Virus record (IMG/VR): IMGVR_UViG_3300025646_000221
Span: 1 to 29,813 of that record
Source: a virus
Length of the DNA stretch: 29,813 bases
Reading direction: 5' to 3' (one strand)
The translations under genes were made by a program, and so were the position numbers. Below the pieces are notes generated by a model that searched no databases, had not been told where the DNA came from, and saw only the letters and a list, made by a program, of their open reading frames with translations. Shown here piece by piece: positions 10,727 through 29,813 of this stretch (its first letter is position 1; each line of letters opens with the position of its first letter).

Positions 10727-10839
10727 TATCAGAACCAAGAAAATGTAAATCTTGCGGGCATCGATGCCATTGCTATGCTCCAGAATGCAAAGAGTGTATT
10801 AATGACGTTTGTACAAAGTGTGACTGTAAAGAAAAATAA
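10723..10839 (+). CDS. Cys-rich 38-aa peptide
   Basis: A 38-residue ORF starting at the ATGA overlap with the o-spanin stop. It has eight cysteines in 28 residues with three C-x2-C pairs (KSCGHRCHCYAPECKEC, then CTKCDC). This arrangement could bind one or two zinc ions as a minimal treble-clef or knuckle. It is hydrophilic with no signal peptide. Short peptides of this kind (P-R-K-C-x-x-C-x-H-x-C-H-C) are common in T4-like cyanophages and marine phages, with no known function. Confidence 0.55.
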   Translation: MISEPRKCKSCGHRCHCYAPECKECINDVCTKCDCKEK

Positions 10840-13610: not shown

Positions 13611-15539
13611 ATGCAAAATCATCTTCCAACCGAATATCAACAGTTTATTCATCTATCACGTTATTCACGTTTTATGTGGGATAAGGGTAGACGTGAGAGT
13701 TGGACCGAGACTGTAAGTCGTTATTTTGATTTCTTTGAAGAAGATCTAAATGACAAACATGATTTTAAATTAAGTAAAAAAGACAGAGACGAACTAGAAG
13801 ATGCTGTATTAAATCAAAAGGTAATGCCCTCTATGCGGTGCCTTATGACTGCTGGTCCAGCATTGAAGAAAGAGAACGTTGCCGGTTATAACTGTTCATA
13901 TCTTGCGATTGATCGTGTTCAAGCATTTGATGAATTACTTTATATTCTTATGAATGGTACTGGTGTAGGATTCTCAGTAGAACGCCAGTTTGTTACTAAA
14001 CTTCCCGTTGTTGCCGAAGATTTCTTTGATTCAGATGTAGTAATCACAGTGGCAGATTCTAAGATTGGTTGGGCAAAGGCACTCAAGGAACTTATTGCTC
14101 TTCTCTATCAGGGTCAAGTACCTTCTTGGGATACTTCTAAAGTACGTCCAGCCGGATCACCATTAAAGACTTTTGGTGGTCGCGCATCTGGTCCAGAACC
14201 ACTTGAAGATCTTTTCAAGTTTGTAACCTCAATTTTCCGTGGAGCTGCTGGTCGTCGTTTATCTTCGCTTGAATGTCATGATATCGTATGTAAGATTGCT
14301 GAGATTGTAGTTGTAGGTGGTGTTCGTCGTAGTGCTCTTATCTCACTATCTAATCTATCTGATGATCGTATGAGACACGCAAAGGCAGGACAGTGGTGGG
14401 AACAAAACCCACAAAGAGCACTTTCAAATAATTCAGCATGTTATACAGAGAAGCCTGATATTGGTATCTTTATGGAAGAATGGTTATCTCTATACAACTC
14501 TAAGTCAGGTGAACGTGGACTGTTCAATCGTGAATCTGCAAAGAAGCAGGTAGCAAAGACAGGTCGTAGAGATGTAGATCATGAGTTTGGTACTAATCCA
14601 TGTTCAGAGATTATTCTGAGAGACCGTGAGTTTTGTAATCTTTCAGAAGTTGTGATTCGTTCTACAGATAGTCTAGAAACACTAAAGGAAAAGGTACGTC
14701 TTGCTACTATTCTTGGAACGTTTCAATCAACATTAACAAACTTTAGATATCTATCAAAGAAGTGGAGAGAGAATTGTGAAGAAGAACGTCTTTTGGGTGT
14801 TTCATTAACAGGGATTATGGACAATGATCTTACAAATGGAAAGAGTGAGAAGAGAGGTAACATTAAGACTCATCAAGTTCTACAGGAACTTAAAACCGTC
14901 GCAATCGAAACAAACAAAGAGTGGTCTAAGAAAATCGGTATCCCACAGTCAGTTTCGGTTACTTGTGTTAAACCTAGCGGCACTGTTAGTCAACTTGTTG
15001 ATGCTGCCAGTGGCATTCATGCACGACATAATCCTTACTATATACGGACGGTGCGTGGAGATAAAAAAGACCCTCTGGCGATCATGATGAGAGATGTTGG
15101 TTTTCCTGTTGAAGATGATGTAATGAAACCAGAACATACTTATGTGTTTTCATTTCCAATGAAGTCACCGGATAGTTCTGTGTTTCGAACTGATATGTCT
15201 GCAATTGAACAGTTGGAACTATGGAAGACTTATCAAGACGCTTGGTGTGAACATAAACCTTCTGTAACTATTTCTGTCAAAGAACATGAGTGGTTAGAGG
15301 TTGGTGCATGGTGTTATAAAAATTTTGATTATATGTCCGGTGTATCATTCTTACCATTTTCTGATCACACATATCGTCAAGCACCATATCAAGATTGCAC
15401 TGAGAAGGAATATCAGCAACTATTAGAGAAGATGCCAAAGAATGTGGATTGGGCTCTTCTACAGAATTATGAGACAACTGATCTAACACTTGGAGCGCAG
15501 GAAATGGCTTGTGCCGCTGGAGGATGTGAAATTATTTAA
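13611..15539 (+). CDS. nrdJ: Adenosylcobalamin-dependent ribonucleoside-triphosphate reductase (class II, monomeric)
   Basis: 642 residues. Key residues line up with the Lactobacillus leichmannii RTPR type: Cys95 in YNCSYL (redox partner), Asn329-Pro-Cys331-Ser-Glu333 in the active-site loop (thiyl radical Cys and Glu), Cys342 eleven residues later (as for C408 and C419 of RTPR), and C-terminal Cys634 and Cys639 in MACAAGGCEI (C-x4-C, as C731/C736). A glycyl-radical site and an NrdB partner are absent, which fits class II. It reduces NTPs to dNTPs with B12 coenzyme, so phage DNA synthesis would depend on host cobalamin. It is somewhat shorter than the bacterial enzyme (about 740). It follows thyX directly. 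Confidence 0.92.
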   Translation: MQNHLPTEYQQFIHLSRYSRFMWDKGRRESWTETVSRYFDFFEEDLNDKHDFKLSKKDRDELEDAVLNQKVMPSMRCLMTAGPALKKENVAGYNCSYLAIDRVQAFDELLYILMNGTGVGFSVERQFVTKLPVVAEDFFDSDVVITVADSKIGWAKALKELIALLYQGQVPSWDTSKVRPAGSPLKTFGGRASGPEPLEDLFKFVTSIFRGAAGRRLSSLECHDIVCKIAEIVVVGGVRRSALISLSNLSDDRMRHAKAGQWWEQNPQRALSNNSACYTEKPDIGIFMEEWLSLYNSKSGERGLFNRESAKKQVAKTGRRDVDHEFGTNPCSEIILRDREFCNLSEVVIRSTDSLETLKEKVRLATILGTFQSTLTNFRYLSKKWRENCEEERLLGVSLTGIMDNDLTNGKSEKRGNIKTHQVLQELKTVAIETNKEWSKKIGIPQSVSVTCVKPSGTVSQLVDAASGIHARHNPYYIRTVRGDKKDPLAIMMRDVGFPVEDDVMKPEHTYVFSFPMKSPDSSVFRTDMSAIEQLELWKTYQDAWCEHKPSVTISVKEHEWLEVGAWCYKNFDYMSGVSFLPFSDHTYRQAPYQDCTEKEYQQLLEKMPKNVDWALLQNYETTDLTLGAQEMACAAGGCEII

Positions 15540-15566: not shown

Positions 15567-15731
15567 ATGGAAACAATAACATGTGAGGAGTGCGGAGCAG
15601 AATTTGATATACAACATAATGAAATAAATAAGGTCGCATACTGCCCATTCTGCGGAGAAGTCTTTCAACAAAATGAAGACTTCGATGAATGGGCAGAAGA
15701 CCGAGAATTTTGGGACGATGAAGACGAATAA
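15567..15731 (+). CDS. Zinc-ribbon 54-aa acidic peptide
   Basis: A 54-residue ORF with a CGGAGTATCAA ribosome binding site upstream. Two knuckles, TCEECGAEF and AYCPFCGEVF, form a C-x2-C...C-x2-C zinc ribbon. The tail is very acidic (EWAEDREFWDDEDE). Its stop overlaps the next start (TAATG). Similar mini zinc ribbons after ribonucleotide reductase genes occur in T4-like marine phages. A role as a binding adaptor is possible; the function is unknown. Confidence 0.65.
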   Translation: METITCEECGAEFDIQHNEINKVAYCPFCGEVFQQNEDFDEWAEDREFWDDEDE

Positions 15732-16138
15732 TGTATGATAATCCTTGGATGTACCAGGGAGAAGTATTTGATGAGAATTTAGTTGACAGGTATCATGGTT
15801 TCGTTTATTGTATTACTTGCCCCGATGGTAGAAAATATATTGGTAGAAAGACATTTTGGTTCATGAGAAAAACTCGTGGGGCGAAGCGGCGTAGTCGTAT
15901 CGAAAGTGATTGGCGTGATTATTATGGTTCGAGTGATGTTGTGAAAGATCTTATAAATCAATCTGAGACAAGTAATTTTCAAAGAGAGATACTATCATTA
16001 CATAAGACTAAAGGTGAAATGAACTATACTGAAGTTAAAGAGCAGTTTCAGAGAAATGTTTTAGAATCGTCGGAATATCTCAATGATAACATCAATGGCC
16101 GGTATTTTAAATCGAGAGTGGAGAAATGGTTAGAATAA
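15731..16138 (+). CDS. GIY-YIG endonuclease, SegE-like
   Basis: 135 residues. The GIY-YIG core is visible as GFVYCIT (23-29) and KYIGRKTF (35-42), with the catalytic Arg likely in the RRSRIESDWRDYYGSS stretch (the family has R...Y/W-x-x-Y-x-G-S) and Glu in QREILS. This layout matches the small SegE-like phage enzymes, single-strand or double-strand nicking homing-type nucleases without a separate DNA-binding domain. It may be a free-standing homing endonuclease or a resident DNA-processing enzyme; no intron is seen nearby. It is coupled to the zinc-ribbon gene. Confidence 0.75.
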   Translation: MYDNPWMYQGEVFDENLVDRYHGFVYCITCPDGRKYIGRKTFWFMRKTRGAKRRSRIESDWRDYYGSSDVVKDLINQSETSNFQREILSLHKTKGEMNYTEVKEQFQRNVLESSEYLNDNINGRYFKSRVEKWLE

Positions 16139-16160
16139 TGATGATGAAATGGAGCTGAAT

Positions 16161-16709
16161 ATGCAAAATGAATTGCCAGATCATTTGGGTGGTCAAAATG
16201 GTAGGAGTTGGACGGATGATGGATCGCTTAATATTATGTGGAATCTTGGTTGCCGAAAGATGCTTGATGTCGGCTGCGGATTTGGAGGTCAAGTTAAATT
16301 AGCAGAATCTCTTGGATGGGAATCTTATGGCGTTGATGGTGATTGGACAGTCCTTCCTAAAGAATCCAATTTTCATTTAAATGATTATACAAAAGGAAGT
16401 CCTACTTTAACTTATGAAGTTGATTTAATTTGGTGTGTAGAATTTTTAGAGCATGTAGAAGAAAAGTATATGGACAACTATATGTCTACATTTCAAGATA
16501 GTAAAGCAAAATATCTTATCGTCACCCATGCTGTACCAGGACAAGCCGGTCATCACCATGTTAACTGTCAAGAGAAAGATTACTGGCTAGATGCTTTCAA
16601 AAGATATGGATTTGAATATGATGAAACACTTACTAAACAAATTCGAGAAGAATCTACTATGAAAAAACCTTTTGTTGCCAGAACAGGATTAGTATTTAAG
16701 AGGAGTTAA
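16161..16709 (+). CDS. SAM-dependent methyltransferase
   Basis: 182 residues. ATG 16161 was chosen over 16149 because GGAG (16151-16154) is 6 bases upstream of it. Motif I is LDVGCGFGGQ (35-44), motif II is YGVDGDW (56-62), and motif IV is VDLIWCVEFLEHVEE with the class I pattern W-C-x-E-x-x-E-H. The later HAVPGQAGHHHVNCQEKDYW segment is typical of small sugar or lipid O-methyltransferases (methyltransf_11/23-type). It is the first gene of the surface-glycan cassette and may methylate a sugar or phosphate group; the substrate cannot be read from the sequence. Confidence 0.8.
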   Translation: MQNELPDHLGGQNGRSWTDDGSLNIMWNLGCRKMLDVGCGFGGQVKLAESLGWESYGVDGDWTVLPKESNFHLNDYTKGSPTLTYEVDLIWCVEFLEHVEEKYMDNYMSTFQDSKAKYLIVTHAVPGQAGHHHVNCQEKDYWLDAFKRYGFEYDETLTKQIREESTMKKPFVARTGLVFKRS

Positions 16710-16711
16710 TA

Positions 16712-17584
16712 ATGTTGTATAATGATGTATATAAAAGTTCTCATAAAACTCTTGATAGGTATCCTCTAAATGATGTAGATTTAACTGAGAAAGGTATTCA
16801 TCTATATAGAAAACTTCAGGCAGAAATTAAACACTTTCAAAGATTAAAACAAGTTGACCAAGAGAACTTAGACTATTATAATGTAGGATTAATAGTTCAT
16901 AAAGGATTTGTTGGTTCTAGTGTTGACGTTGAAAGGGCTTTAAAAGAATTCGAAAATTTCGAGGTATCGGTATCTAAAAATTCTAACAATATTCTTTCAA
17001 TGAATAGAGATAAGTCTAGATTATTATATAATATATCATTACTAATCTATCCCCACATTTATAAACTTATTGGAGGAGATGAACGAGAAGTAGAAACCAA
17101 GTTCAGAAATAACACATTTGCTCAAATCGTAAGAAATAGACCAGGAGATGACGATCATCAAAAATTAATGCATCTAGATACATACTTTCCTGCAATCAAG
17201 TTTTGGTGGTTTCCAAAGAAAGTCGATGATGGTCCATTAATGTTTGCTAAGGGTAGTACAAAATCAAACGAAAAAATGCAGATGTGGTATTATCAACAAA
17301 GTGTAAAAGCGTGTAAAAAAGAATACGAAGAGTGGAGAGCAAAAGATCATTATGAAGGATCGTTTAGAGTAAGTGAAGAAGAATTACAAGAGATGGGTTA
17401 TGAAATGGAACCCATCTACGTAAACGAAGATACATTAGTTATTGCTAATGTTGGTGGTTTTCATTCTAGAGGTAATACAAAAGAATTGAATAGAAGAGTT
17501 GCTATTCATGGCAGTGTAAGATTAGATAATCCGTTGGGAGATACAATATATGTTAAAGATATACTCAAAAGTTTATCCAGATAA
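16712..17584 (+). CDS. PhyH-like 2-oxoglutarate/Fe(II) dioxygenase
   Basis: 290 residues with AGGAG upstream. The C-terminal half has the facial-triad arrangement: His154-Leu-Asp156 in LMHLDTYFPAIKFWWFP, distal His251 in ANVGGFHSRGNT, and Arg253 or Arg262 (ELNRRVAIHGSVR) to bind 2-oxoglutarate. The spacing of about 95 residues fits the family. KVDDGPLMFAKGSTK matches the PhyH G-P-x-x-x-x-x-G-S segment. The N-terminal 130 residues are helical and not recognisable. Such enzymes hydroxylate small molecules or sugars; here the substrate is probably a precursor of the glycan cassette (inference). Confidence 0.7.
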   Translation: MLYNDVYKSSHKTLDRYPLNDVDLTEKGIHLYRKLQAEIKHFQRLKQVDQENLDYYNVGLIVHKGFVGSSVDVERALKEFENFEVSVSKNSNNILSMNRDKSRLLYNISLLIYPHIYKLIGGDEREVETKFRNNTFAQIVRNRPGDDDHQKLMHLDTYFPAIKFWWFPKKVDDGPLMFAKGSTKSNEKMQMWYYQQSVKACKKEYEEWRAKDHYEGSFRVSEEELQEMGYEMEPIYVNEDTLVIANVGGFHSRGNTKELNRRVAIHGSVRLDNPLGDTIYVKDILKSLSR

Positions 17585-17972
17585 GTTATGTCATATGGTA
17601 TATCGTTCTGACGATTTATCAGAGAATAGAGAAGATGTTGCACCAGAAGATCAATTTATTCAAGTCTCGGCTTTAAAATTAGAAGCAGGAAAGACGTTTC
17701 GACCACATAGACACATTTGGAAAAATGCCCCTAGAAAACAAGTTGTCGCTCAAGAATCTTGGTGCGTTATGGAAGGTAAAGTAAAAGCACATTTCTATGA
17801 CGTGGATGATACTATTTTAGAAGAAATTGTTTTAAATTCAGGAGATATTTCACTTACGTTTGAAGGTGGTCACACATACACAATTTTAGAAAACGCTAAA
17901 GTTTATGAATACAAAACTGGTCCATATGAAGGTGTAGAAAAGGACAAGGTATTTTTAAATGGGAACGTATAA
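17550..17972 (+). CDS. Cupin-fold protein of the glycan cluster
   Basis: 140 residues. ATG 17550 has GGGAG 9 bases upstream; it overlaps the previous gene by 35 bases and the next by 14. The cupin core reads FRPHRHIWKNAPRKQVVAQE, then SWCVMEGKVKAHFYD and GGHTYTI: two His, a Glu and a late His as metal ligands. I have seen this domain type in bacterial LPS and capsule loci, where cupins act as sugar isomerases or epimerases (FdtA/WbuC-like). Whether this one is catalytic is unknown. Confidence 0.65.
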   Translation: MLKIYSKVYPDKLCHMVYRSDDLSENREDVAPEDQFIQVSALKLEAGKTFRPHRHIWKNAPRKQVVAQESWCVMEGKVKAHFYDVDDTILEEIVLNSGDISLTFEGGHTYTILENAKVYEYKTGPYEGVEKDKVFLNGNV

Positions 17973-18648
17973 CGTTCGTGGTGGACTAGGCACTCAAATA
18001 CTATCACTTTATACATGTTACGCCATAGCTAAAGAAAATAATACAACAGTAAATAAAATATTGTTTAACACTGGTGGTTATTGGCAAAATTCAGATATTA
18101 TAATGGATGAAGATCGTATCTTTTTCGACGACTTTTTGACGTTCAAAAAAAGACCAGAAATTACTACGGTGATTGGTACTAATAAAACCAATCCTTTCAA
18201 AGAACCTAATGTTTCTCTCTTACTTAAATGGTGGGAAAATATTAATGAATCTGAAGTTAGTTTAAATTTGAACGGTTGTGATTATGTTAATTCTGGTAAA
18301 ACTGTGATTCATGTCAGACAATCAGATAGACCTTTGATACCAATTGAAGTATATGATGAAGAAATTAGATATCATAAAAATCCTATTATATTATCTGAAG
18401 ACAAATCTGTACATAAAAGATATGGTATTACACCAACAAACGATACTATAAAAGATTGGATGACTATATATCAAGCGCATACTGTTATTGGAGGATTTTC
18501 TTCTTTTGCATTACTTGCTGGTATGTGGAATCCAAATCTAAATGTTTATTTCTTTAATAAACTTTTGGCAAATCCAAATGTATCATTCGATGTCTGGAAT
18601 ATTATACATAAATTTGTAGAAAAATTCCCTAACATTAATTGGACATAA
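17959..18648 (+). CDS. Fucosyltransferase-like glycosyltransferase
   Basis: 229 residues. The N-terminal GGLGTQILSLYTCYAIAKE is the nucleotide-binding entry loop of GT11/NodZ-type fucosyltransferases (G-G-L-G-N-Q-x-x-x-x-x-x-A). His118-Val-Arg120 in TVIHVRQSDR is the conserved H-x-R-x-x-D motif. VIGGFSSFALLAGMW (about 176-190) corresponds to the donor-binding S-S-F-S-x-x-A segment. It is shorter than GT11 (about 290), so it may be a minimal or divergent member. GDP-sugar use is likely given the Gmd gene in the same cluster. Start ATG 17959 overlaps the cupin gene. Confidence 0.65.
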   Translation: MGTYNVRGGLGTQILSLYTCYAIAKENNTTVNKILFNTGGYWQNSDIIMDEDRIFFDDFLTFKKRPEITTVIGTNKTNPFKEPNVSLLLKWWENINESEVSLNLNGCDYVNSGKTVIHVRQSDRPLIPIEVYDEEIRYHKNPIILSEDKSVHKRYGITPTNDTIKDWMTIYQAHTVIGGFSSFALLAGMWNPNLNVYFFNKLLANPNVSFDVWNIIHKFVEKFPNINWT

Positions 18649-18666
18649 TATAATGGAGTCTTAAAA

Positions 18667-19305
18667 ATGAAAACTGTTTTGATACTCGGTGGCAGTGGTG
18701 GTATCGGTAAAGTTTTAACAGAAATTATGAAGGATAAATATAATGTTACATCTTTATCATCTAAAAATTTAGATGTAAGAAATCGTAAAGAATGTGATAT
18801 ATATTTTAAAACAAATCATTTTGATATTGTAGTAAACTTAGCAGCGTATAATGCTAATGGTTTTACACATAGCATTGGTTATATTGATACTGCCAATCAA
18901 GTAGATACAAACGTTTGGGGTACTCTAAATGTAGTTCAACTTTGTTTGAAACATTTTATGAGAGAACGTGGTGGTAATATTATTCTTGCCTCTTCTATTC
19001 TAGCGGATAAAGCTCAAGTAGGAACTTCTATATATTCAGCAACAAAGGGATTTATAGAATCATATGTTCGTACCGTTGCCGTAGAAAATTTTAATAAGAA
19101 TGTTTATATAAACGCTATTCAGTTGGGATACTTTGAAAAAGGTCTAACAGAAACTATTAGTGAAGATATTCAACAAGAGATAATGAAGAATATTCCCGCC
19201 AGACGATGGGGTAGAATTGAAGAAGTGTACAATACAATTGAATATATATTAAATACTAGTTATGTTTCTGGTCAAACACTTCGCATTAATGGCGGTCTGT
19301 TATGA
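18667..19305 (+). CDS. Short-chain dehydrogenase/reductase
   Basis: 212 residues with a TGGAG site. NAD(P)-binding GGSGGIGK (8-15), VNLAAYNANG (the N-A-A-G-like motif, about 57-66) and the catalytic Tyr123-x3-Lys127 in YSATKGF, with Ser about 13 residues earlier in ILASSIL. C-terminal RWGRIEEV...YVSGQTLRINGG is the FabG-like substrate/NAD loop ending. It probably reduces a keto sugar in the cassette; acyl carrier specificity seems less likely in this context. It is coupled by ATGA to the acyltransferase gene. Confidence 0.85.
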   Translation: MKTVLILGGSGGIGKVLTEIMKDKYNVTSLSSKNLDVRNRKECDIYFKTNHFDIVVNLAAYNANGFTHSIGYIDTANQVDTNVWGTLNVVQLCLKHFMRERGGNIILASSILADKAQVGTSIYSATKGFIESYVRTVAVENFNKNVYINAIQLGYFEKGLTETISEDIQQEIMKNIPARRWGRIEEVYNTIEYILNTSYVSGQTLRINGGLL

Positions 19306-19814
19306 ATCCTGAATTAGTAGATCATGGTTCATTTTGTAAGTATAAATTAGAATCAACGTTTGGAGATTACGTTGTTCTAGATTATAACGTATTTTCTTCT
19401 GTTATTATGGATATTGGTGACTGGGTTCATATTGCTCCACAGGTTGCTATTATTGGCGGCAGGACTTCCAAGCTTGTTATGGGTCATTTTAGTGGTATCA
19501 GTGCTGGCGGCAAAGTTATTTGTGGTGGAGATGATTTTGCTTCTGGCTCTCTTATGAATCCACAAGTACCTAGTAAGTACCGAATTTCAAATATAACTAC
19601 AGTAACATTTGAGCCATTTTCTTGTATTGGTGTCAATAGTGTTGTTATGCCTGGAATTACTCTAGGTGAAGGAGCAGTAGTAGGTTCAAACTCGACGCTT
19701 ACTAAAGATGCTGAACCATGGACAATCTATGTTGGCAGTCCTGCAAGACCTGTAAAGAAAAGACCAAACGAACTTGCTTATAAGTATGCTAGGGAGTTAG
19801 GTTATGACTTTTAA
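19302..19814 (+). CDS. Left-handed beta-helix (hexapeptide) acyltransferase
   Basis: 170 residues of LbH-type hexapeptide repeats: GDYVVLDYNVFSSVIMDIGD, HIAPQVAIIGG, then FSGISAGGKVICGGD and the terminal ITLGEGAVVGSNSTLTKDAE ... YVGSPARPVKKR. The S-P-A-R-P-V-K/R ending is diagnostic of sugar O- or N-acetyltransferases (WbbJ, NeuD, PerB relatives). It would acylate a nucleotide sugar with acetyl-CoA or another acyl-CoA. It sits two genes before a DegT-type aminotransferase and three before Gmd, consistent with N-acylation of an amino sugar. Coupled on both sides by overlap. Confidence 0.8.
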   Translation: MNPELVDHGSFCKYKLESTFGDYVVLDYNVFSSVIMDIGDWVHIAPQVAIIGGRTSKLVMGHFSGISAGGKVICGGDDFASGSLMNPQVPSKYRISNITTVTFEPFSCIGVNSVVMPGITLGEGAVVGSNSTLTKDAEPWTIYVGSPARPVKKRPNELAYKYARELGYDF

Positions 19815-20604
19815 TAAATTCTGGAATAGTGAAGGTTATGATATCATTGATTTGGAGTTGACTGATGCCGAAATTAATGGTATAAATGATGATGTAACAA
19901 ACATTCTAGCACTAGAGAATAAGACGATTCAATCTGACCATTATCAATATACACAGTGGCCCAGATTATTTGAAGCGTGGAAAAAGAGTAGAAATATCGC
20001 CAATCTCTGTATGAATGAAAAAATACTTCGTCGTCTAGAAAATTGGTATATGAAGAAGGCATTTCCGTTTTCTACAATCAATTTTACGGGCCCATCTAAT
20101 CAACCTCTACATAGTGATTGTATTCATTTTCATACCATACCAGAGAGAATGATGATTGGTGTATGGGTTGCTTTAGAAGACGCGACTATAGAGAATGGTA
20201 CTTTGTCTGTAGTTCCAGGTAGTCACGACTGGGATATATATAACTATGAATCTCTAGGCCTTCCACATCCAGACGATATAGATAATGGTGAAGAGATAAA
20301 CTATAGAGAATATGAGAAGTTTATAGAGCATCTTGTTTTGATAAAAAAAGGAAAGAGAACTCCTGTTCCCGTGAAAAAAGGTGAAGCGATTATATGGGAA
20401 GCAAATCTTCTACATGGCGGCACATTTACGCCACACAAAGATAAAACGAGAAAAGCACAGGCGATACACTACTTCTTTGAGGGGTGTTCTGAGTACTATC
20501 ATCCAATGTTCTCTAGACCTAGCGAAGGTAAGTATGCTAAAAAATGGTGTAACGAGAATAATAATATAAGAACATATCTGGAGGATATTGATGGTAGAAT
20601 ATAA
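19804..20604 (+). CDS. Phytanoyl-CoA dioxygenase (PhyH)-family 2OG/Fe(II) enzyme
   Basis: 266 residues, close to family length. The facial triad is clear: His103-Ser-Asp105 in NQPLHSDCIHFHTIPE, distal His204 in WEANLLHGGTFTPH, and an Arg about 14 residues on in KTRKAQAIHYFF. The segment MIGVWVALEDATIENGTLSV followed by VPGSH is diagnostic of PhyH enzymes (W-x-A-L-D/E...N-G-x-L-x-x-x-P-G-S-H). It hydroxylates an aliphatic or sugar-linked substrate with 2-oxoglutarate and Fe(II). Phage homologues are common in marine viruses; the substrate here is unknown. It overlaps the upstream acyltransferase gene by 11 bases. Confidence 0.85.
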   Translation: MTFNKFWNSEGYDIIDLELTDAEINGINDDVTNILALENKTIQSDHYQYTQWPRLFEAWKKSRNIANLCMNEKILRRLENWYMKKAFPFSTINFTGPSNQPLHSDCIHFHTIPERMMIGVWVALEDATIENGTLSVVPGSHDWDIYNYESLGLPHPDDIDNGEEINYREYEKFIEHLVLIKKGKRTPVPVKKGEAIIWEANLLHGGTFTPHKDKTRKAQAIHYFFEGCSEYYHPMFSRPSEGKYAKKWCNENNNIRTYLEDIDGRI

Positions 20605-21298
20605 CGCATGGCCTATAGGACAACTACCTAAACATTTACAAAGACCAGAGCTAGACCAAATTAGAGAACTCGGTTACGATTGGAAAGATCCACGCGATAT
20701 AGTAGATATGTTTGAAAAAAAGGTTGCCAAATACGCAGGATCAAAGTACGCGGTTTCTGTAGACTGTTGTTCACACGGTATCTTTCTAGCATTACAATGT
20801 ATAAAAAGACACAGATCGAACGGCCGTAAAAATATATCAACTCTCACTATTCCTAAACACACATATGTTTCAGTACCTCAACAGATAATACATGCCGGAT
20901 TTAAAGTAAAATTAGAAGATAGAGAATGGTCAGGTATATATCAGTTAAAACCTTATAGAATATGGGATGGAGCTACTCGTTGGCAAAGAGATATGTACAT
21001 GGGTGGATTTCATATCGTTTCTTTTCAATTAAAGAAAAGAGTACCTATTGGTAGAGGTGGTATGATTTTACTTGACAATAAGAACGAATACGAGTATCTT
21101 AAAAAGATTAGATACGATGGTAGAGATTTAGATGGTAAATATGATGAAGATTCCTTTGAACACTTGGGGTGGCATTATTATATGACACCAGAAGACGCCG
21201 CTCGTGGTATCATTATTATGGACCAGACTCCTGAATATAATGATGATAGTGGTGGTTGGAAGAATTATCCTGATTTATCAAAAGCGAGGTTTTTTTAA
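20591..21298 (+). CDS. Short DegT/DnrJ/EryC1-type PLP aminotransferase
   Basis: 235 residues. ATG 20591 has GGAGG 6 bases upstream and is preferred to the TTG three bases earlier. Features of the family: IVDMFEKKVAKYAGSKYAVS, SHGIFLALQCI (PLP-phosphate loop), IPKHTYVSVPQQI, WDGATRWQRDMY (the D-x-A-H/T-x-x-G region) and FQLKKRVPIGRGGMILL with the Schiff-base Lys at 148 or 149. Typical members have about 370 residues; this one lacks most of the C-terminal small domain. It may be a minimal enzyme, need a partner, or be a remnant. Sugar 4-amination, for instance to perosamine, is suggested by the adjacent Gmd. Confidence 0.75.
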   Translation: MVEYNAWPIGQLPKHLQRPELDQIRELGYDWKDPRDIVDMFEKKVAKYAGSKYAVSVDCCSHGIFLALQCIKRHRSNGRKNISTLTIPKHTYVSVPQQIIHAGFKVKLEDREWSGIYQLKPYRIWDGATRWQRDMYMGGFHIVSFQLKKRVPIGRGGMILLDNKNEYEYLKKIRYDGRDLDGKYDEDSFEHLGWHYYMTPEDAARGIIIMDQTPEYNDDSGGWKNYPDLSKARFF

Positions 21299-22263
21299 TG
21301 AAAGCGTTAATTACAGGTATTAGTGGACAAGACGGATCTTATCTTACAGAATATCTTTTAAGTCTTGATTACGAAGTACATGGTATTGTCCGTAGACATA
21401 GTGTAGCAGAAAATCAAAGCGCAAGATTAGAAAAATTCTCTGATAAAATTGCCGGTCTTCATTACGGCGATCTATTAGATGTACACTCATTATATGATAT
21501 CGTTAATAAAATTAAACCAGATGAAATCTATAATTTGGCTGCTATGAGTCAAGTTAGGATTTCTTCTGACATCCCCTCTTTTACTATTAAAACAAATTCT
21601 CTAGGCGTTTTAAATATGCTAGAGATTACTAGTAAACTCTGCCCAGAAGCAAAGTTTTATCAAGCATCTTCTAGTGAAATGTTTGGTAACAGTGTAGATG
21701 AGGACGGGTTTCAAAGACTAACAACACCAATGAATCCTGTCAGTCCATACGGTTGTTCTAAAGTTCTTGGTTATAATCTTGTAAGACATTATAGACACGG
21801 ATATAATATGCATGCTTGTAACGGAATTTTATTCAATCACGAATCTCCTAGACGTGGAACAAACTTTGTAACGAATAAAGTTGTGAAGAACGCTGTTCTA
21901 ATCAAGAAAAACAAACTCAATAAACTTGAGATGGGTAATATGGATAGCAGTCGTGATTGGGGTCATAGTTCTGATTATGTTAGAGCAATGCACAAAATTA
22001 TTAATCATAGTGATCCAGACGATTGGATTGTAGCAACTGGTAAATCCTATACTGTCCGACAAATGTGTGAATATGTCTTTGGCCGACTAGATTTAAATTA
22101 TGAAGACTTTGTAGTACAAAATCCAAAATATATGAGACCAGAAGAATTGAAATATCTCTGTGGTGATTCAGAAAAAACTAGAAAGATACTAAATTGGAAA
22201 CCTAATTATACTTTTGAGTTAATGTTAGAAGAGATGATAGAATATTGGATGGGTAAAACATGA
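21298..22263 (+). CDS. gmd: GDP-mannose 4,6-dehydratase
   Basis: 321 residues, slightly below the usual 345-370. The Rossmann entry is TGISGQDGSYLTEYLL (6-21), then VHGIVRRHS. The catalytic set Ser125, Glu127 (SSSEMFGN), Tyr151 and Lys155 (YGCSK) is intact. NHESPRRGTNFVT and RDWGHSSDYVRAM are diagnostic of Gmd rather than of other NDP-sugar dehydratases. It makes GDP-4-keto-6-deoxy-D-mannose, precursor of GDP-fucose, GDP-rhamnose and GDP-perosamine. It overlaps the aminotransferase stop by one base and the next gene by ATGA. Confidence 0.92.
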   Translation: MKALITGISGQDGSYLTEYLLSLDYEVHGIVRRHSVAENQSARLEKFSDKIAGLHYGDLLDVHSLYDIVNKIKPDEIYNLAAMSQVRISSDIPSFTIKTNSLGVLNMLEITSKLCPEAKFYQASSSEMFGNSVDEDGFQRLTTPMNPVSPYGCSKVLGYNLVRHYRHGYNMHACNGILFNHESPRRGTNFVTNKVVKNAVLIKKNKLNKLEMGNMDSSRDWGHSSDYVRAMHKIINHSDPDDWIVATGKSYTVRQMCEYVFGRLDLNYEDFVVQNPKYMRPEELKYLCGDSEKTRKILNWKPNYTFELMLEEMIEYWMGKT

Positions 22264-22943
22264 AAATTGTTTTCGCCTGTTGTGATCCCATCTATTTAAA
22301 AGAACATGGAGAGGCGTTTGCTAAGAGTGCGATAAAGAATGGCGAAACACCTTGGATTCATATTCTTTGTGACGAAGAAACGAAACAAGAGATTTTAAAT
22401 CAGAATTCTTTTGATTGGCATATCGGGTGTCATTTTAGTTTTAGTGACATTGAACCAAAAGATCGCATGATGTATGCTTGTTCTAGATTTATCGTTGCTA
22501 CTGATATAATTAGACAAGACAATGTTTCTGAAATGTTGATTGTTGATATTGATGGATTTCTAAGAAAACCTATTGATTGGGACGATTTTAAAAATTGCGA
22601 TTATTCAATTTTCACAAGAGATCCGTTACCAGGAACAGTAGGATGGGAAAATGAGGGAACCCATGTAGCTGCTGGGGCTATGTATCTGAGAAAGTCTGGT
22701 TATAGTTTCATTGATACTGTGGCACATAATCTCATGGAAAATATCAAAAAGCATGGTTGTATTTGGTTTATGGATCAAGTCATTTTGTGGAAAGTTCATC
22801 AAAATATAAAAAACTTGAAGTTTGTTCAGATGCCCTCTAAGTATATTGATTGGGAGTTTAATGAAGACAGTATCATCTGGTCCGGCAAAGGTAATCGAAA
22901 AAATCAAAAAAACTATCTAGAGGAACGCAAAAGTGCAAGTTGA
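22260..22943 (+). CDS. GT-A-type glycosyltransferase-like protein (DxD)
   Basis: 227 residues. It starts MKIVFACCDPIYLKEHGEAF, resembling GT8-type N-termini, and carries Asp96-Ile-Asp98 in LIVDIDGFLRKPID, the metal/nucleotide-sugar binding motif. THVAAGAMYLRKSG and HGCIWFMDQVILW correspond to the acceptor and catalytic segments of such enzymes (N/A-G-x-x-x-x-x and F-x-D-Q-x-x-x), and IWSGKGNRKNQ ends with the W-x-x-x-G-K-G-x-R type loop. Transfer of a sugar onto the growing glycan is likely; donor and acceptor are unknown. Confidence 0.6.
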   Translation: MKIVFACCDPIYLKEHGEAFAKSAIKNGETPWIHILCDEETKQEILNQNSFDWHIGCHFSFSDIEPKDRMMYACSRFIVATDIIRQDNVSEMLIVDIDGFLRKPIDWDDFKNCDYSIFTRDPLPGTVGWENEGTHVAAGAMYLRKSGYSFIDTVAHNLMENIKKHGCIWFMDQVILWKVHQNIKNLKFVQMPSKYIDWEFNEDSIIWSGKGNRKNQKNYLEERKSAS

Positions 22944-23901
22944 CATATACATGCCTAGACTAGACGTTATGTTTAAAGAAGGTCCTGTTCCAGAACAAAG
23001 AGGACCTATTGCTCCAATACGAGTCCATTGGATAAAGTTTATTGAACAACTTTATAATGCTCATGATGTTTTAAAAGACGACGTAAGAGTTATTGAAGTT
23101 CCTTTGTGGCAGATTACGACTGAATTTGTAAAAGAACACAGCAAAGACGCTGATGTTTATTATATACCACACAAGATGGAACAAACTTGGTGGTTAGATA
23201 ATCGTGTTAGATATTATATGCAGATGGTTATACCACATATCTTTTCTATTGATAGTAAAGGTTGGTGCGCTACCGCTTCATTTTATCCTATAGAAAATCT
23301 TAGTAAGAATACTGAAAGACATCATTTATTTGATAGAGTTAATTCTGGCGAGACAAAGTTTGATCAACCCAGTTCAAACGATACAGCTTTATCTTTCAAA
23401 CCATATGTGTTCTTTCCTTGTCAAATACCACACGATGAGACTATCATATATCATAGTGACGTGAAAGTAGAAGAAGCTTTGGAAATGACCCTAGATTGGG
23501 CTTCAACGACTGCTAAGAAGGTTGTTATCAAAGGTCATCCTGTCAATCCAGGTTCTATGGAATCTATAAAAAAAGTTGCTAATCGTTATAACTGTGTTTG
23601 GGTAGATAATTTCAACATCTTTGATTTGATAAAAAATAGTGAAATGGTTGTGACTGTAAACAGTGGTGTGGGGTTAGAATCTATCTTAGCCGGCAAGAAA
23701 GTTGTCACATTTGGTAGGACGGATTATGATACCGTCACATGGAAGGTAAATCCTAAAGAATATCGTTATTCGTTATCTAATGCTTATAACACTGATTGGG
23801 TTAATTTTGAAAGATACAATAAATTCATTCACACTTGGTATGACACTCATTACGATTATACCAATCCAGAAAGTTTTAAAAAATTAAAAAATTTCTGTTG
23901 A
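22933..23901 (+). CDS. KpsS/Capsule_synth-like polysaccharide protein
   Basis: 322 residues from GTG 22933, which has an AGAGGAACG site and overlaps the previous stop by 11 bases. The C-terminal half shows FFPCQIPHDETIIYHSD, VIKGHPVNPGSMESIK and VTVNSGVGLESILAGKKVVT followed by FGR. That order (F-P-x-Q-x-x-x-D, K-x-H-P, N-S-x-x-x-x-E-x-L-x-x-G-K-x-V) is the signature of the Capsule_synth family (KpsC/KpsS, Kdo transferases of capsule lipid linkers). A role in attaching or extending a capsule or LPS glycan is inferred. Its TGA is embedded in the -35 of the next promoter, so it is the end of the cassette. Confidence 0.75.
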   Translation: MQVDIYMPRLDVMFKEGPVPEQRGPIAPIRVHWIKFIEQLYNAHDVLKDDVRVIEVPLWQITTEFVKEHSKDADVYYIPHKMEQTWWLDNRVRYYMQMVIPHIFSIDSKGWCATASFYPIENLSKNTERHHLFDRVNSGETKFDQPSSNDTALSFKPYVFFPCQIPHDETIIYHSDVKVEEALEMTLDWASTTAKKVVIKGHPVNPGSMESIKKVANRYNCVWVDNFNIFDLIKNSEMVVTVNSGVGLESILAGKKVVTFGRTDYDTVTWKVNPKEYRYSLSNAYNTDWVNFERYNKFIHTWYDTHYDYTNPESFKKLKNFC

Positions 23902-23926
23902 CATTTAATCAGCATGGTACTATAAT
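23898..23926 (+). promoter_or_regulatory. Consensus sigma-70-type promoter
   Basis: TTGACA at 23898-23903, a 17-base spacer and TATAAT at 23921-23926: a full consensus match. The -35 covers the stop codon of the capsule-type gene. Expected start about 23933, upstream of a 12-codon leader ORF and the HAD gene at 23999. Its -35 and spacer are nearly identical to those of the promoter at 28526 (TTGACATTTAAT, then CAGC and ATGGTA), so both belong to one phage promoter class. Confidence 0.8.
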
Positions 23927-23960
23927 GTAAATGAGTTCAGTTTCTATGGAGATCTATCTT

Positions 23961-23999
23961 ATGAAACGACTGTTTGGGAAATATATAAAGGTAGTATAA
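23961..23999 (+). CDS. 12-codon leader ORF
   Basis: ATG 23961 follows GGAG (23948-23951) at 9 bases and encodes MKRLFGKYIKVV, ending with a TAA whose last A is the first base of the next ATG. The peptide is basic. The arrangement suggests a translational coupler or leader that loads ribosomes onto the HAD gene, which otherwise lacks a good binding site of its own (AAAGGTAG is inside the leader). Coding status is uncertain; it is too short to judge by composition. Confidence 0.35.
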   Translation: MKRLFGKYIKVV

Positions 24000-24586
24000 T
24001 GGAAAAGATAATTGTCGCTGATTGCGACGGTGTACTTCTGAATTGGGAGTACGCTTTTGATTGTTGGATGAATGAACGTGGATTCTTTAAGGGTCCGGAC
24101 TCTGACCTCCATTATGAGATTGGATCTCGATATGGTCTCACAAAACAACAAGGTAAGAGTTTTATAGCAGAATTCAATCAATCTGCTGCAATTGGTTTTC
24201 TACCAGCCCTTCGAGATGCCGTTTGGTACGTCAAACGACTCCATGAAGAACATGGATATGTCTTTGATGTTGTAACCAGTCTCTCTACTGATAAACATGC
24301 TGCAATGCTACGTGAACGGAATCTTAAGAAGGTTTTCGGCGAGAACACTTTTCGTAATATCGTCTGTCTTGCTACTGGTGCTCGAAAAGATAAGTATCTT
24401 AAAGAACACTACGAAGATTCAGGATATGTCTGGATTGAAGATAAGGTAGAGAATGCAGACGATGGCTTTGATGTTGGTATGAAACCTCTTCTAGTAGAAC
24501 ATGGTTTCAATATGAATGAAAAGAATCTTTCATATCCAATCGTCAAAAACTGGAAAGAAATTTATGAAAGGGTAGTTACATCATGA
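23999..24586 (+). CDS. HAD-family phosphatase, 5'(3')-deoxyribonucleotidase-like
   Basis: 195 residues. Motif I is ADCDGVLLNW with nucleophile Asp8 and acid/base Asp10. Motif II is VVTSLS, motif III the Lys in GARKDKYLKEHY, and motif IV WIEDKVENADDG. The order and spacing fit the NT5C-type nucleotidases of the HAD superfamily, which dephosphorylate deoxynucleotides; a sugar or nucleoside phosphatase is possible as well. It is the first full gene after the promoter at 23898, and overlaps the next gene by ATGA. In a phage it would adjust nucleotide pools next to ThyX and NrdJ. Confidence 0.75.
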   Translation: MEKIIVADCDGVLLNWEYAFDCWMNERGFFKGPDSDLHYEIGSRYGLTKQQGKSFIAEFNQSAAIGFLPALRDAVWYVKRLHEEHGYVFDVVTSLSTDKHAAMLRERNLKKVFGENTFRNIVCLATGARKDKYLKEHYEDSGYVWIEDKVENADDGFDVGMKPLLVEHGFNMNEKNLSYPIVKNWKEIYERVVTS

Positions 24587-26870: not shown

Positions 26871-27860
26871 ATGTCGTTAAAAGTAATTATGAATGAAAGC
26901 GAGTTAAACAATTCTATTGGTATTGAGACAAACGAATTGAATAGAAATGCTATGGGTGGCACAGAGATGATGCAACATGCATTGTATTCAAAGTTGTCAA
27001 AGGAGTTGTTAGATAGATTCCAAATTATTCCATCTAGAGTTAGGAATATTGATCCTAATCGTCTTCCTATTCTCTGGTTGCATGATTTGGCAGAAGACCC
27101 TGAGGCCAGGCACCTAAGTGATAGTGGAAACCGGAGCAGATTCAGACGACTTGTTTTTGTATCCCACTGGCAATTTACAACTTATCATAAAGTTTTAGGT
27201 GTCCCCTATAGCGATTCTATTGTTATTAGAAACGCTATTGAACCTATTCCTACTCACGAAAAATCAAAAGAAGGTCCATTGAGACTTATCTATCACACTA
27301 CACCACACCGTGGTCTTGATGTGTTGTTAGCTGTTTATCAGAAACTATCTGAAAAATGGGGCGATAGAGTTCATCTAGATGTATATTCATCTTTTAATAT
27401 CTATGGATGGCCACAGAGAGATGAACCATTTGAACAATTATTTCAAATTTGTCGTGATCATGAACATATCACATACCATGGAACTGTATCCAATCAAGAA
27501 GTAAGAGAAGCATTACAAAAAGCACACATTTTTGCATACCCCAGCACATGGCAAGAAACTTCTTGTATTGCTGCGATTGAAGCGATGAGTGCCGGTTGTT
27601 GCGTAGTTTGTCCATCTCTAGCTGCACTTCCAGAAACTACTTCTAACTTTTCTCTTATGTATCCATTTGATGAGGATAAGAATCAACACGCTCATATGTT
27701 CTACCAAGTTCTAAATGCGGCTATAGAATCATATTGGGAGGAAGATATGCAAACAAAATTGCAGTTTCAGAAACTCTACACAAACACATTCTATAGCTGG
27801 GATCTACGAGCACAAGAATGGGAGGGATTATTAAAATCCCTATTAGACCACGAAAAGTAA
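26871..27860 (+). CDS. GT4-family glycosyltransferase
   Basis: 329 residues. The N-terminal part has the acceptor-domain pattern with NAMGGTEMMQHALYSKL (G-G-x-E/T loop) and LWLHDLAEDP, RLVFVSHWQ (the V-x-V-S loop) and an NAIEP boundary. The donor domain shows RLIYHTTPHRGLDVLLAVYQ, ITYHGTVSNQEVREALQKAH and the E-x7-E motif Glu229-Glu237 in QETSCIAAIEAMSAGCCVV. That is a retaining GT4 (GT-B fold) enzyme. It is separated from the main glycan cassette by about 3 kb and lies behind its own late promoter, so it may modify a virion or surface component. Phage GT4 proteins of this type also occur next to DNA-modification or fibre genes. Donor unknown. Confidence 0.8.
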   Translation: MSLKVIMNESELNNSIGIETNELNRNAMGGTEMMQHALYSKLSKELLDRFQIIPSRVRNIDPNRLPILWLHDLAEDPEARHLSDSGNRSRFRRLVFVSHWQFTTYHKVLGVPYSDSIVIRNAIEPIPTHEKSKEGPLRLIYHTTPHRGLDVLLAVYQKLSEKWGDRVHLDVYSSFNIYGWPQRDEPFEQLFQICRDHEHITYHGTVSNQEVREALQKAHIFAYPSTWQETSCIAAIEAMSAGCCVVCPSLAALPETTSNFSLMYPFDEDKNQHAHMFYQVLNAAIESYWEEDMQTKLQFQKLYTNTFYSWDLRAQEWEGLLKSLLDHEK

Positions 27861-27962
27861 TTATAGTTTGTTTAGAGGGTTATTCAAGGCTTTTCTATAG
27901 TCTTGTTTACCCTGGGTTCTTGGAGCAATGAGTTGCCCTGGATTGATGGGAGATGGTCGAGC

Positions 27963-28220
27963 ATGATGAAAAAACCACCCGGCCATGCGGGATACGTCAA
28001 ACCAGACGATCCCTGGTGTGATGAGTTTATAGATTATATCGATACGAGATATGGTGGTCGTGTTGAGTTACAGCAGTTTCTCAAAGATATGAATTGGAAG
28101 GGAATAGATACACCATGGGGTCCTGGATTGAGATGGACCTACGATTTTGACAAAGACCAAAAATTTTATATCACAACAAAAAAAGTTGTTGACAAAAATA
28201 AAATTCCTGGTATTATATAA
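27963..28220 (+). CDS. Small conserved protein, start uncertain
   Basis: 85 residues from ATG 27963 (GGGAG at 27948-27952). The frame is open upstream to TTG 27933 (GGAG at 27922-27925, 7 bases) and TTG 27903, and that extension (ELPWIDGRWSS) looks protein-like, so the true start may be 27933. Sequence: MMKKPPGHAGYVKPDDPWCD, EFIDYIDTRYGGRVELQQFL and FDKDQKFYITTKKVVDKNKI. It is a small alpha/beta protein without recognised motifs. A promoter overlaps its 3' end. The 100 bases between it and the GT4 stop hold nothing else I can identify. Confidence 0.5.
   Translation: MMKKPPGHAGYVKPDDPWCDEFIDYIDTRYGGRVELQQFLKDMNWKGIDTPWGPGLRWTYDFDKDQKFYITTKKVVDKNKIPGII
28189..28216 (+). promoter_or_regulatory. 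Sigma-70-type promoter with extended -10
   Basis: TTGACA at 28189-28194, a 16-base spacer and TATTAT at 28211-28216, preceded by TGG, which gives an extended -10 (TG-N-TATTAT). It lies within the end of the preceding ORF and about 30 bases before the 57-codon gene at 28247. Confidence 0.6.
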
Positions 28221-28246
28221 ACATGATGAATGAAGGAGTGAACAAG

Positions 28247-28420
28247 ATGAAGACAGTAATCCTTTATGAGTCCGATTTTGCTAACAACCAGATTGGCATG
28301 ACGTGGGCCGATCTTCTCGATAATCTCGGTATCGAGACCCATGTTCTGGTCGGCGGTCGTTGGATCGACAAGGAAATCGAATCTGTGACCTTGAAGGTCG
28401 CTTCGGTGGAGGCAAACTAG
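28247..28420 (+). CDS. Short GC-richer ORF, probably frameshifted
   Basis: 57 residues from ATG 28247 (GGAG 28235-28238), preferred to ATG 28223. Sequence: MKTVILYESDFANNQIGMTW, ADLLDNLGIETHVLVGGRWI and a C-terminus SVTLKVASVEAN that looks unlike the rest. Codons end mostly in C or G (GCC, CTC, GTC, ATC), unlike the AT-rich genes before it, which suggests transfer. The leader GATGAATGAAGGAGTGAAC closely matches the leader of the repeat-protein gene at 28582. The -1 frame takes over with a strongly coding-like sequence near the stop (see the 28324-28536 entry), so the original protein was probably about 95 residues. Confidence 0.5.
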   Translation: MKTVILYESDFANNQIGMTWADLLDNLGIETHVLVGGRWIDKEIESVTLKVASVEAN

Positions 28421-28536
28421 GATCTGAAGAGGAATTCCGTCTCTATCCTATGAACTATGGATTTGTTTCCATGTCAGGCGATTCCATCTGGTCGATGGTA
28501 AAAAAGAAAAAAATGAAAAAAACCGTTGACATTTAA
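28324..28536 (+). pseudogene. -1-frame continuation of the 28247 gene
   Basis: In the frame one base behind the 28247 ORF, no stop occurs from 28324 to TAA 28534-28536. From about 28390 it reads LEGRFGGGKLGSEEEFRLYP, then MNYGFVSMSGDSIWSMVKKK: a well-formed segment with codon use like the 28247 ORF (CGC, TTC, GGC, CTC, TCC). This looks like the second half of the same protein after a frameshift. No classical slippery heptamer is obvious, so a mutation is more likely than programmed shifting. The downstream promoter's -35 lies in its last codons. Confidence 0.45.
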
Positions 28537-28553
28537 TTCAGCTATGGTATAAT
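28526..28553 (+). promoter_or_regulatory. Sigma-70-type promoter for the repeat-protein genes
   Basis: TTGACA at 28526-28531, a 16-base spacer and TATAAT at 28548-28553 with an extended TGG before it. Expected start about 28560, 22 bases before ATG 28582. Its first 12 bases (TTGACATTTAAT) and the CAGC and ATGGTA that follow match the promoter at 23898. Confidence 0.8.
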
Positions 28554-28581
28554 AACTATAGTTGATGAAGGAGTGAATGAC

Positions 28582-29082
28582 ATGACTACTTTTGATTTTG
28601 GCAACGGCCTGGTCCCCGCCCACCAGCATTCTAATGGTGGTGGGTGGGTCGCTGATACCGCCACTGTTTCTGAGACCGCCTATGTTGGGTCTAACGCTAG
28701 GGTGTCTGATAACGCTAGGGTGTCTGGTGATGCTGAGGTGTTTGGTGACGCTATGGTGTCTGGTAACGCTGTGGTGTCTGGTGACGCTAGGGTGGCTGGT
28801 AACGCTGTGGTGTCTGGTGACGCTGTGGTGACTGGTCACGCTAAGGTGTCTGATTACGTTATGGTGACTGGTTACGCTAGGGTGTCTGGTTACGCTAGGG
28901 TGTCTGGTCGCGCTGTGGTGTCTGATTACGCTAGGGTGTCTGATTACGCTATGGTGACTGGTTACGCTAGGGTGTCTGGTGACGCTATGGTGTCTGATGA
29001 TGCTTGGGTGTCCGGTAACGCTGAGGTGTCCGGTAACACTGAGGTGTCTGGTTACGCTAAGGTGTTTGGTAACGCTTGGTAA
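28582..29082 (+). CDS. Left-handed beta-helix hexapeptide-repeat protein 1
   Basis: 166 residues. ATG 28582 has AAGGAG (28568-28573) upstream. A 36-residue head, MTTFDFGNGLVPAHQHSNGG and then GWVADTATVSETAYVG, is followed by about 21 hexapeptides of the form V-[STFY]-[GD]-x-A-x. This satisfies the LbH rule [LIV]-G/x-x-A-x and would form roughly 7 helical coils. The ending is GNAW. Bacterial proteins of this type (YdcK-like, W-V-A-x-T-A-x-V-x-x-x-A-Y-V-G) are known as LbH proteins of unclear function. There is no acetyl-CoA-binding extension as in the acyltransferase at 19302. A surface or fibre-like role is possible. Codons are GC-rich compared with the rest of the window. Confidence 0.75.
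   Translation: MTTFDFGNGLVPAHQHSNGGGWVADTATVSETAYVGSNARVSDNARVSGDAEVFGDAMVSGNAVVSGDARVAGNAVVSGDAVVTGHAKVSDYVMVTGYARVSGYARVSGRAVVSDYARVSDYAMVTGYARVSGDAMVSDDAWVSGNAEVSGNTEVSGYAKVFGNAW
28690..29079 (+). repeat. 18-bp tandem repeat tract in repeat protein 1
   Basis: About 21 degenerate 18-base units, typically GGTAACGCTAGGGTGTCT (10 of 18 bases G or C). Changes fall mainly in the AAC/GAC/TAC/CGC/CAC codon, the AGG/GTG/ATG/GAG/AAG codon and the TCT/TTT/ACT/TAT codon; GCT and GTG are nearly invariant. Each unit is one LbH hexapeptide. Confidence 0.9.
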
Positions 29083-29102
29083 TGGATGAAGAAGTGAATG
29101 AC

Positions 29103-29627
29103 ATGACTACTTTTGATTTTGGCAACGGCCTGGTCCCCGCCCACCAGCATTCTAATGGTGGTGGATGGGTCGCTGATACCGCCACTGTTTCTGAGAGCGC
29201 CTATGTTGGGCCCGAAGCTATGGTGTTTGATAACGCTGTGGTGACTGGTAACGTTGTGGTGTATGGTAACGCTGAGGTGTCTGGTCGCGCTGTGGTGTCT
29301 GGTCGCGCTGTGGTGTATGGTAACGCTAGGGTGTCTGATTACGCTGAGGTGTCTGGTAACGCTAAGGTGTTTGATAACGCTCGGGTGACTGGTAACGCTA
29401 GGGTGTATGATAACGCTGAGGTGACTTGTGACGCTAGGGTGTATGGTAACGCTAGGGTGTATAATAACGCTGTGGTGTCTGGTTACGCTGTGGTGACTGG
29501 TTACGCTGAGGTGTATGGTAACGCTGAGGTGTCTGGTCGCGCTGTGGTGTCTGGTCACGCTATGGTGTCTGGTAACGCTCGGGTGTCTGGTCGCGCGATG
29601 TTGTATGATTACGCTATTGTGGAGTGA
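29103..29627 (+). CDS. Left-handed beta-helix hexapeptide-repeat protein 2
   Basis: 174 residues from ATG 29103; the leader GATGAAGAAGTGAATGAC copies that of gene 1 except for one base. The 108-base head differs from gene 1 at only two positions. The repeat tract then diverges: about 23 hexapeptides with more Tyr and Arg (for example VYGNARVYNNAVVSGYAVV). There is no own promoter, so it is read from the 28526 promoter. High head identity with divergent repeats suggests recent duplication followed by recombination within the repeat. It ends SGRAMLYDYAIVE. Confidence 0.75.
   Translation: MTTFDFGNGLVPAHQHSNGGGWVADTATVSESAYVGPEAMVFDNAVVTGNVVVYGNAEVSGRAVVSGRAVVYGNARVSDYAEVSGNAKVFDNARVTGNARVYDNAEVTCDARVYGNARVYNNAVVSGYAVVTGYAEVYGNAEVSGRAVVSGHAMVSGNARVSGRAMLYDYAIVE
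29211..29624 (+). repeat. 18-bp tandem repeat tract in repeat protein 2
   Basis: About 23 units of the same 18-base pattern as in protein 1, but with a different series of variable codons (more TAT, CGC and GAG). GCT and GTG again stay fixed. One unit has TGT in the first position (CDARVY), a point substitution of GGT. Confidence 0.9.
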
Positions 29628-29632
29628 ATGAA

Positions 29633-29813
29633 ATGACTACTTTTGATTTTGGCAACGGTCCGGTCTCCGCCTACCAGCATCCTAATGGTGGTGGGTGGGT
29701 CGCTGATACCGCCACTGTTTCTGAGAGCGCCTATGTTGGGCCTAACGCTTGGGTGTCTGATGCCGCTGTGGTGTCTGATGCCGCTGTGGTGTCTGGTAAC
29801 GCTAGGGTGTCTG
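29633..29813 (+). CDS. Left-handed beta-helix hexapeptide-repeat protein 3 (3' partial)
   Basis: The third tandem paralogue starts at ATG 29633, 5 bases after the stop of gene 2, and runs off the window after 60 codons. Its 108-base head differs from gene 1 at six positions (NGPVSAYQHPNGG instead of NGLVPAHQHSNGG), so it is more diverged than gene 2. Four hexapeptides are visible (NAWVS, DAAVVS twice, GNARVS). The array may continue beyond the window. Confidence 0.75.
   Translation, partial: MTTFDFGNGPVSAYQHPNGGGWVADTATVSESAYVGPNAWVSDAAVVSDAAVVSGNARVS

Follow-up and report, generated by a model that had tools for sequence, protein, structure and literature searches.

A tandem, probably diversifying array of YdcK-type hexapeptide solenoid genes at a proposed accessory-gene site in an estuarine phage related to T4

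The window analysed here, a 29,813-bp linear fragment of an estuarine virus of bacteria, ends in a tandem array of genes for hexapeptide-repeat solenoid proteins that fills its last 1.2 kb (Table 1). We propose that the array occupies an accessory-gene site in an estuarine phage related to T4, where stand-alone solenoids of the YdcK type have been amplified and are diversifying as binders of host targets, and we regard this explanation as evenly balanced between right and wrong. Its evolutionary part is well supported, and its functional part is a guess from context. The protein family itself is known; what is new here is its amplification, its turnover and its apparent movement on a promoter cassette shared with other genes. 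In the literature searched we found neither hypervariable hexapeptide arrays of phages nor a T4-related phage with a diversifying array borne on cassettes.

Table 1. Features of the array site, with positions in the window
Feature	Position	Strand	Remarks
Glycosyltransferase group 1 gene	26871..27860	+	conserved; upstream of the array, marks its site
Second promoter-like site, TTGACA-16-TATTAT	28189..28216	+	11/12 match; precedes the preceding cassette
Leader/ribosome-binding block GAAGGAGTGAACAAG of preceding cassette	28232..28246	+	
57-aa ORF of preceding cassette	28247..28420	+	no family match
Consensus sigma-70 promoter, TTGACA-16-TATAAT	28526..28553	+	12/12 match; extended TG before the -10 box
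Leader GAAGGAGTGAATGAC of gene 1	28567..28581	+	exact match
Solenoid gene 1	28582..29082	+	166 aa; cap, then hexapeptide units
Conserved 108-base head of gene 1	28582..28689	+	encodes cap MTTFDFGNG..HQHSNGGGWVADTATVSETAYVG
Leader of gene 2	29088..29102	+	no promoter of its own
Solenoid gene 2	29103..29627	+	174 aa
Leader of gene 3	29618..29632	+	3 mismatches; overlaps the end of gene 2
Solenoid gene 3	29633..29813 (->)	+	cut by contig end; 218 aa in L009

Array genes and their protein family

The initial annotation had described three consecutive genes with nearly the same 108-base head, and this is what we find: the head of gene 1 differs from that of gene 2 at 2 positions and from that of gene 3 at 6, and the encoded cap includes residues that are invariant in 24 relatives. 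The gene duplication that it suggested is borne out by the longer related contig L009, which is 99.1% identical to the window over 9.3 kb and in which the full array, truncated in the window, comprises five tandem paralogues (8001-10812), each encoding a cap followed by a solenoid. Contig L010 also carries five solenoid genes, matching those of L009, and L028 starts within gene 2 and then continues as L009 does. Downstream of the L009 array lie a gene for a 345-aa protein (PHROG 11903), then exonuclease and PhoH genes. Solenoid genes were also found at two distant places in one 126.9-kb contig.

Several other genes of the window and its relatives deserve mention. An adenosylcobalamin-dependent ribonucleotide reductase (window 13611-15539) is closest to that of Puniceispirillum phage HMO-2011 (66%), and the primase is closest to those of T4-like cyanophages (40%). 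Positions 15731-24586 hold genes that, judged by sequence, resemble sugar or lipid modification genes (nucleotide-sugar dehydratase, short-chain dehydrogenase, hexapeptide acetyltransferase and oxygenases). In a second lineage of related contigs (L012-L023, lineage 2), an insertion upstream of the array encodes on the minus strand a 783-aa protein (L018, 4331-6682) with cysteine-containing repeats (YDQQCSLDPLYDTDC...) and a signal-peptide-like start.

Judging from profile matches above the curated cut-off, the solenoid genes are genuine. PF18836 (B_solenoid_ydck; cut-off 30 bits) scores 63.5 bits with gene 1 and 66.2 bits with gene 2 (E=6e-18 and 9e-19), and 17.9 bits with the truncated gene 3, and among solved structures the best relative is YdcK (2F9C; E=6.5e-9 with a single sequence, 4.6e-20 with a 24-sequence profile). 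Scores for neighbouring families fall below their cut-offs: 46.9 and 76.2 bits against 350 for the YdcK equivalog NF040481, 18.6 against 27 bits for the hexapeptide acyltransferases (PF00132), whose catalytic loop insertion is missing from the units, and 25.6 and 25.0 bits against 27.9 (E ~1e-5) for the bactofilins (PF04519), which have a beta-helix core in common with the array proteins but of which these are not members. Two AlphaFold models of array proteins predicted a regular solenoid with a mean pLDDT of ~82; a fold search with them gave no significant match and matched no left-handed helix, and the nearest fold by TM-score (~0.5) was that of right-handed pectate lyases. We trust the sequence link to YdcK above these models and do not assign a handedness to the solenoid.

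The YdcK proteins of E. coli and Salmonella (2F9C, PF18836, NF040481) resemble the array proteins in their V-[STY]-[GD]-x-A-x units and GGWV cap motif but are longer and have divergent units, whereas the window proteins combine a short cap with uniform units and are encoded by tandem paralogues. The family is contained in PHROG 7964 and 5070, with relatives in 60 phage and 18 plasmid records. The phage cap-solenoids of these PHROGs, from Streptococcus, Lactobacillus, Mycobacterium and Xanthomonas phages, are homologous and several have like unit statistics; however, KYEL..TLYRIRAL is their usual cap and VGCF.GT their usual C-terminal domain, whereas the window genes lie in arrays and no C-terminal domain was seen in their products. 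The gene arrangement is paralleled on the S. salivarius plasmid pIKMIN-B502 and the B. tribocorum plasmid pBT01 (L066, L076), each with five consecutive solenoid paralogues, although these arrays are plasmid-borne and have a YdcK-type cap and other units. The S. salivarius array lies near a gene for an LPXTG protein. In bacterial genomes (L077-L156), secreted proteins from Ruminococcus, Verrucomicrobia, Planctomycetes and Bacteroidales have, following DUF6055, a domain made up of an HPNGGGWV cap and a short solenoid, along with LamG, dockerin or sorting domains.

To our knowledge, hexapeptide solenoids of the stand-alone kind, which many phages and plasmids carry, have no assigned function. 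They have been labelled as acyltransferases, cytoskeletal proteins, glycerol kinases and even CRISPR spacers. The 'glycerol kinase' label on solenoid genes in Javan Streptococcus phage records (for example, L065, 4839-5615) is an evident misannotation, the hexapeptide repeats deposited as 'CRISPR spacers' in the Vibrio breoganii phages L059-L063 are really protein-coding, and the label 'polymer-forming cytoskeletal protein' on relatives is probably an over-annotation.

The promoter-leader cassette

The near-consensus promoter previously assigned to the array is real as a sequence match, agreeing with the consensus at all 12 positions, and is followed upstream of gene 1 by GAAGGAGTGAATGACATG. 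Each of the five array genes carries a copy of the GAAGGAGTGAATGA leader, and the promoter precedes the first; the later solenoid genes carry the leader only. Both elements are more frequent than expected, with 6 promoter-like sites against 2.2 expected in shuffles and 4 leaders against 0.2. A promoter and leader similar to those of gene 1 also precede the 57-aa ORF, which is possibly a remnant, as the open stretch runs on in another frame. Several genes upstream of a leader end in ...GGTAATGAATGA, with the stop codon at the leader.

In related contigs this sequence forms a near-constant block (TTGACAAAAATTAATTCTTTTGTTATxATATAAACATGATGAACGAAGGAGTGAATGAxATG), which precedes seven ORF families: the solenoids and proteins of 57, 74, 99-102, 114, 132 and 189 aa. 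The initial annotation had not anticipated this sharing of the block. A family search found no known function for the six non-solenoid families. By eye, the 189-aa cassette protein in L025 (199-765; PHROG 6927) looks like a PD-(D/E)XK nuclease, a likeness that Pfam does not confirm.

Such an arrangement recalls the PeSL promoter-stem-loop cassettes (Arbiol 2010, doi 10.1093/gbe/evq006; Comeau 2014, doi 10.1093/gbe/evu129), which are reported to bring about gene shuffling in T4-like phages (PMC4503421). In both cases a host-type promoter cassette is repeated before small accessory genes of a T4-related phage and is a plausible crossover site. In contrast to a PeSL, the constant part of the window cassette is a conserved translation leader; no stem-loop was found in the leader (fold z=0.20) and no terminator-like site in 27800-29813. 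Because no stem-loop was found, we class the cassette, on its sequence features, as PeSL-like and not as a PeSL.

Repeat variation, selection and turnover

The window contains 49 units of 18 bases, unbroken by any inserted loop, with the pattern [S/T/Y/F]-[G/D]-[N/Y/D/R/H]-A-[R/V/E/M/K/W]-V. Four codons vary, not the three first reported: codon 1 (S/T/Y/F), codon 2 (G/D), codon 3 (N/Y/D/R/H) and codon 5 (R/V/E/M/K/W). The GCT and GTG codons described as fixed are nearly but not wholly so (GCT in 45 of 49 units at codon 4, GTG in 47 of 49 at codon 6). Family profiles and unit statistics bear out the broader idea of a conserved beta-solenoid core with a variable exterior. It is the first and second bases of the codons that vary, and the third base is fixed.

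Amino-acid replacements dominate the divergence between units. At the variable codons, pN/pS exceeds 1 in all 13 genes, as do the bootstrap lower bounds; it is 2.2 for gene 1 and 14.3 for gene 2 of the window, 7.6-9.8 for genes 3-5 of L009 and 1.9-85 for other genes of the phage group. Codon preference was rejected as the cause of the fixed third bases, the codon usage of the array being unlike that of the phage: GTG makes up 95% of valine codons in the array and 8% elsewhere in the phage, and AGG 60% of arginine codons against 6%. The same replacement-dominated pattern stands on other founder units in other lineages, such as TAT GGC AAT GCT xxG GTC in L038 and TCC GGT GAC GCT xGG GTA in a Ruminococcus phage. 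Since the founder units of the lineages are different and synonymous, the pattern arose repeatedly.

Programmed mutagenesis, by a diversity-generating retroelement or otherwise, might be thought to make such variants, as first- and second-base variation with a fixed third base superficially resembles adenine-directed mutagenesis. However, a reverse transcriptase was found in none of seven related virus records (fragments), in a search that detected its positive controls, and the variation is spread over every unit and draws on a restricted residue set, with codon 5 in L009 never encoding A, S, T or P. We therefore rejected retroelement mutagenesis and consider programmed mutagenesis in general extremely improbable.

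Neutral repeat dynamics need more weight. Slippage and unequal crossing-over could generate the units, with the variable residues merely tolerated and the proteins filling a plain structural role. Unrelated phages use the same residue alphabet (S/T/Y/F, G/D, N/D/Y, R/K/E/V/W/Q), the units seem to follow one another almost at random, and in older arrays (LfeInf, Bp8p-C, KLEB27-3 and Bartonella) pN is about equal to pS, with both kinds of site saturated. On the other hand, the pN/pS of young arrays is ~2 to 85, with replacement variants common and synonymous ones rare, and the codons that result from the fixed third bases are seldom used elsewhere in the phage. On balance we judge a neutral origin rather unlikely. 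We prefer an expansion and homogenisation of units accompanied, as we infer, by diversifying selection at outward positions. Homologous recombination between the 18-base units, heads and leaders would add, fuse and replace genes, and selection would keep the core alanine and valine and favour different outward residues; as a result, amino-acid changes would accumulate and synonymous ones would not. No exact run of at least three units common to different genes was found. One observation against our reading is that the residues gave no clear three-unit face pattern or face-specific ladder, contrary to what a fixed binding face would lead one to expect.

The comparison of related contigs points to such recombination. 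Upstream and downstream of the array, lineage 2 is ~96.5% (96-97%) and ~93.5% identical to L009, respectively, but its three solenoid genes share only 51-64% identity with the L009 genes, the range seen among paralogues of a single genome. In a set of 13 near-identical contigs, made up of lineage 2 and L011, the array varies about tenfold more than its flanks: pairwise substitutions per kb number 3.09 in the array versus 0.33 and 0.27 in the flanks, and variable sites number 23 of 1,908 in the array versus 11 of ~9,090 in the flank (Fisher p=1e-10). A tract of eight variant sites in L011, L015 and L018 is exactly as in L030-L032, suggesting that arrays undergo conversion with one another. L029, a contig that begins inside the array and is 99.7% identical downstream, has an in-frame junction between position 8255 of L009, in gene 1, and position 9613, in gene 3. 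This junction and the lineage 2 arrays bear out the proposed recombination and turnover of arrays between related phages, but rapid switching is not borne out, as unit order is kept in the window, L009 and L010, which come from different metagenomes. L009 and L010 differ at 3 sites within the array and at 18 in the rest of 9.9 kb, so that array variability in this comparison is not above that of the flank. Because these two are nearly identical despite the differences between lineages, we conclude that turnover occurs between lineages and not from genome to genome.

Every sequence of this phage group comes from a metagenome assembly, in which repeats of 18 bases may be misassembled; short reads could have scrambled unit order and produced much of the array difference. 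Vibrio phages give reason for caution. Between the V. breoganii phages 1.139.A and 1.139.B, the only differences lie in the repeat gene and at the record ends; what separates 1.034.O from 1.034.X is the repeat gene together with two SNPs. As the source paper, which used short reads, lists 1.034.X as a technical replicate (PMC6029569), these sister-phage differences are probably assembly errors, and we set aside within-strain hypervariability in Vibrio phages. In records L157-L160 the repeat gene alone, or almost alone, distinguishes sister phage genomes, one of them a technical replicate, which calls for care when such genes are assembled from short reads. For the turnover described above, we used only array types that recur in several contigs assembled separately. 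The window, L009 and L010, although separately assembled, agree at nearly every array base, and 7 of the 13 contigs of the second-lineage set are identical through 1.9 kb of array; both alternative arrays are thus replicated, and a largely artefactual origin of the differences appears very improbable.

Possible roles of the solenoid proteins

The initial annotation suggested that the proteins may be decoys, adhesins or shields; as adhesins, receptor decoys or shields they would decorate the virion or the host cell. Some observations agree with this: baseplate wedge and tail PHROGs contain weakly similar repeats (E ~1e-6), the cap with a short solenoid occurs as a domain of the secreted DUF6055 proteins, and the region upstream of the array looks rich in sugar-related genes. 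Against it, no signal peptide, membrane segment, anchor or virion-association domain was seen in the sequences of the array proteins, the promoter is a strong sigma-70 one, and homologues in temperate phages lie in the lysogeny and replication region, where the solenoid gene adjoins genes for CI/Cro, excisionase, and RecT or Rad52. Display on cell or virion surfaces is therefore not borne out and seems quite improbable, and a role as adhesin or shield is unsupported. DNA mimicry was also rejected, the five L009 proteins being only mildly acidic (charge -5 to -7).

An early intracellular role in host interaction, perhaps in counter-defence, appears likelier than a surface role, although it is unproven and guessed from context. 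Cytoplasmic solenoid proteins, whose genes have a host-type promoter and are probably expressed early in infection, may bind variable host targets and so contribute to host takeover or counter-defence, in which case their diversity would reflect an arms race. A profile search of a defence library gave no match. Going further, the array could be a repertoire system of the phage, in which a cassette-mobile set of cytosolic solenoid binders faces variable host targets such as defence proteins, a reading of the sequence that we offer tentatively and consider unlikely. If it is true, recombination among units and exchange between phages would keep making new binding surfaces on a fixed scaffold.

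In summary, the recurrent, replacement-dominated divergence of the units suggests that diversifying selection acts on the exterior of these solenoids, so that a binding role can be put to the test. In addition, the common promoter-leader block provides a marker for finding further accessory genes of these uncultured phages.
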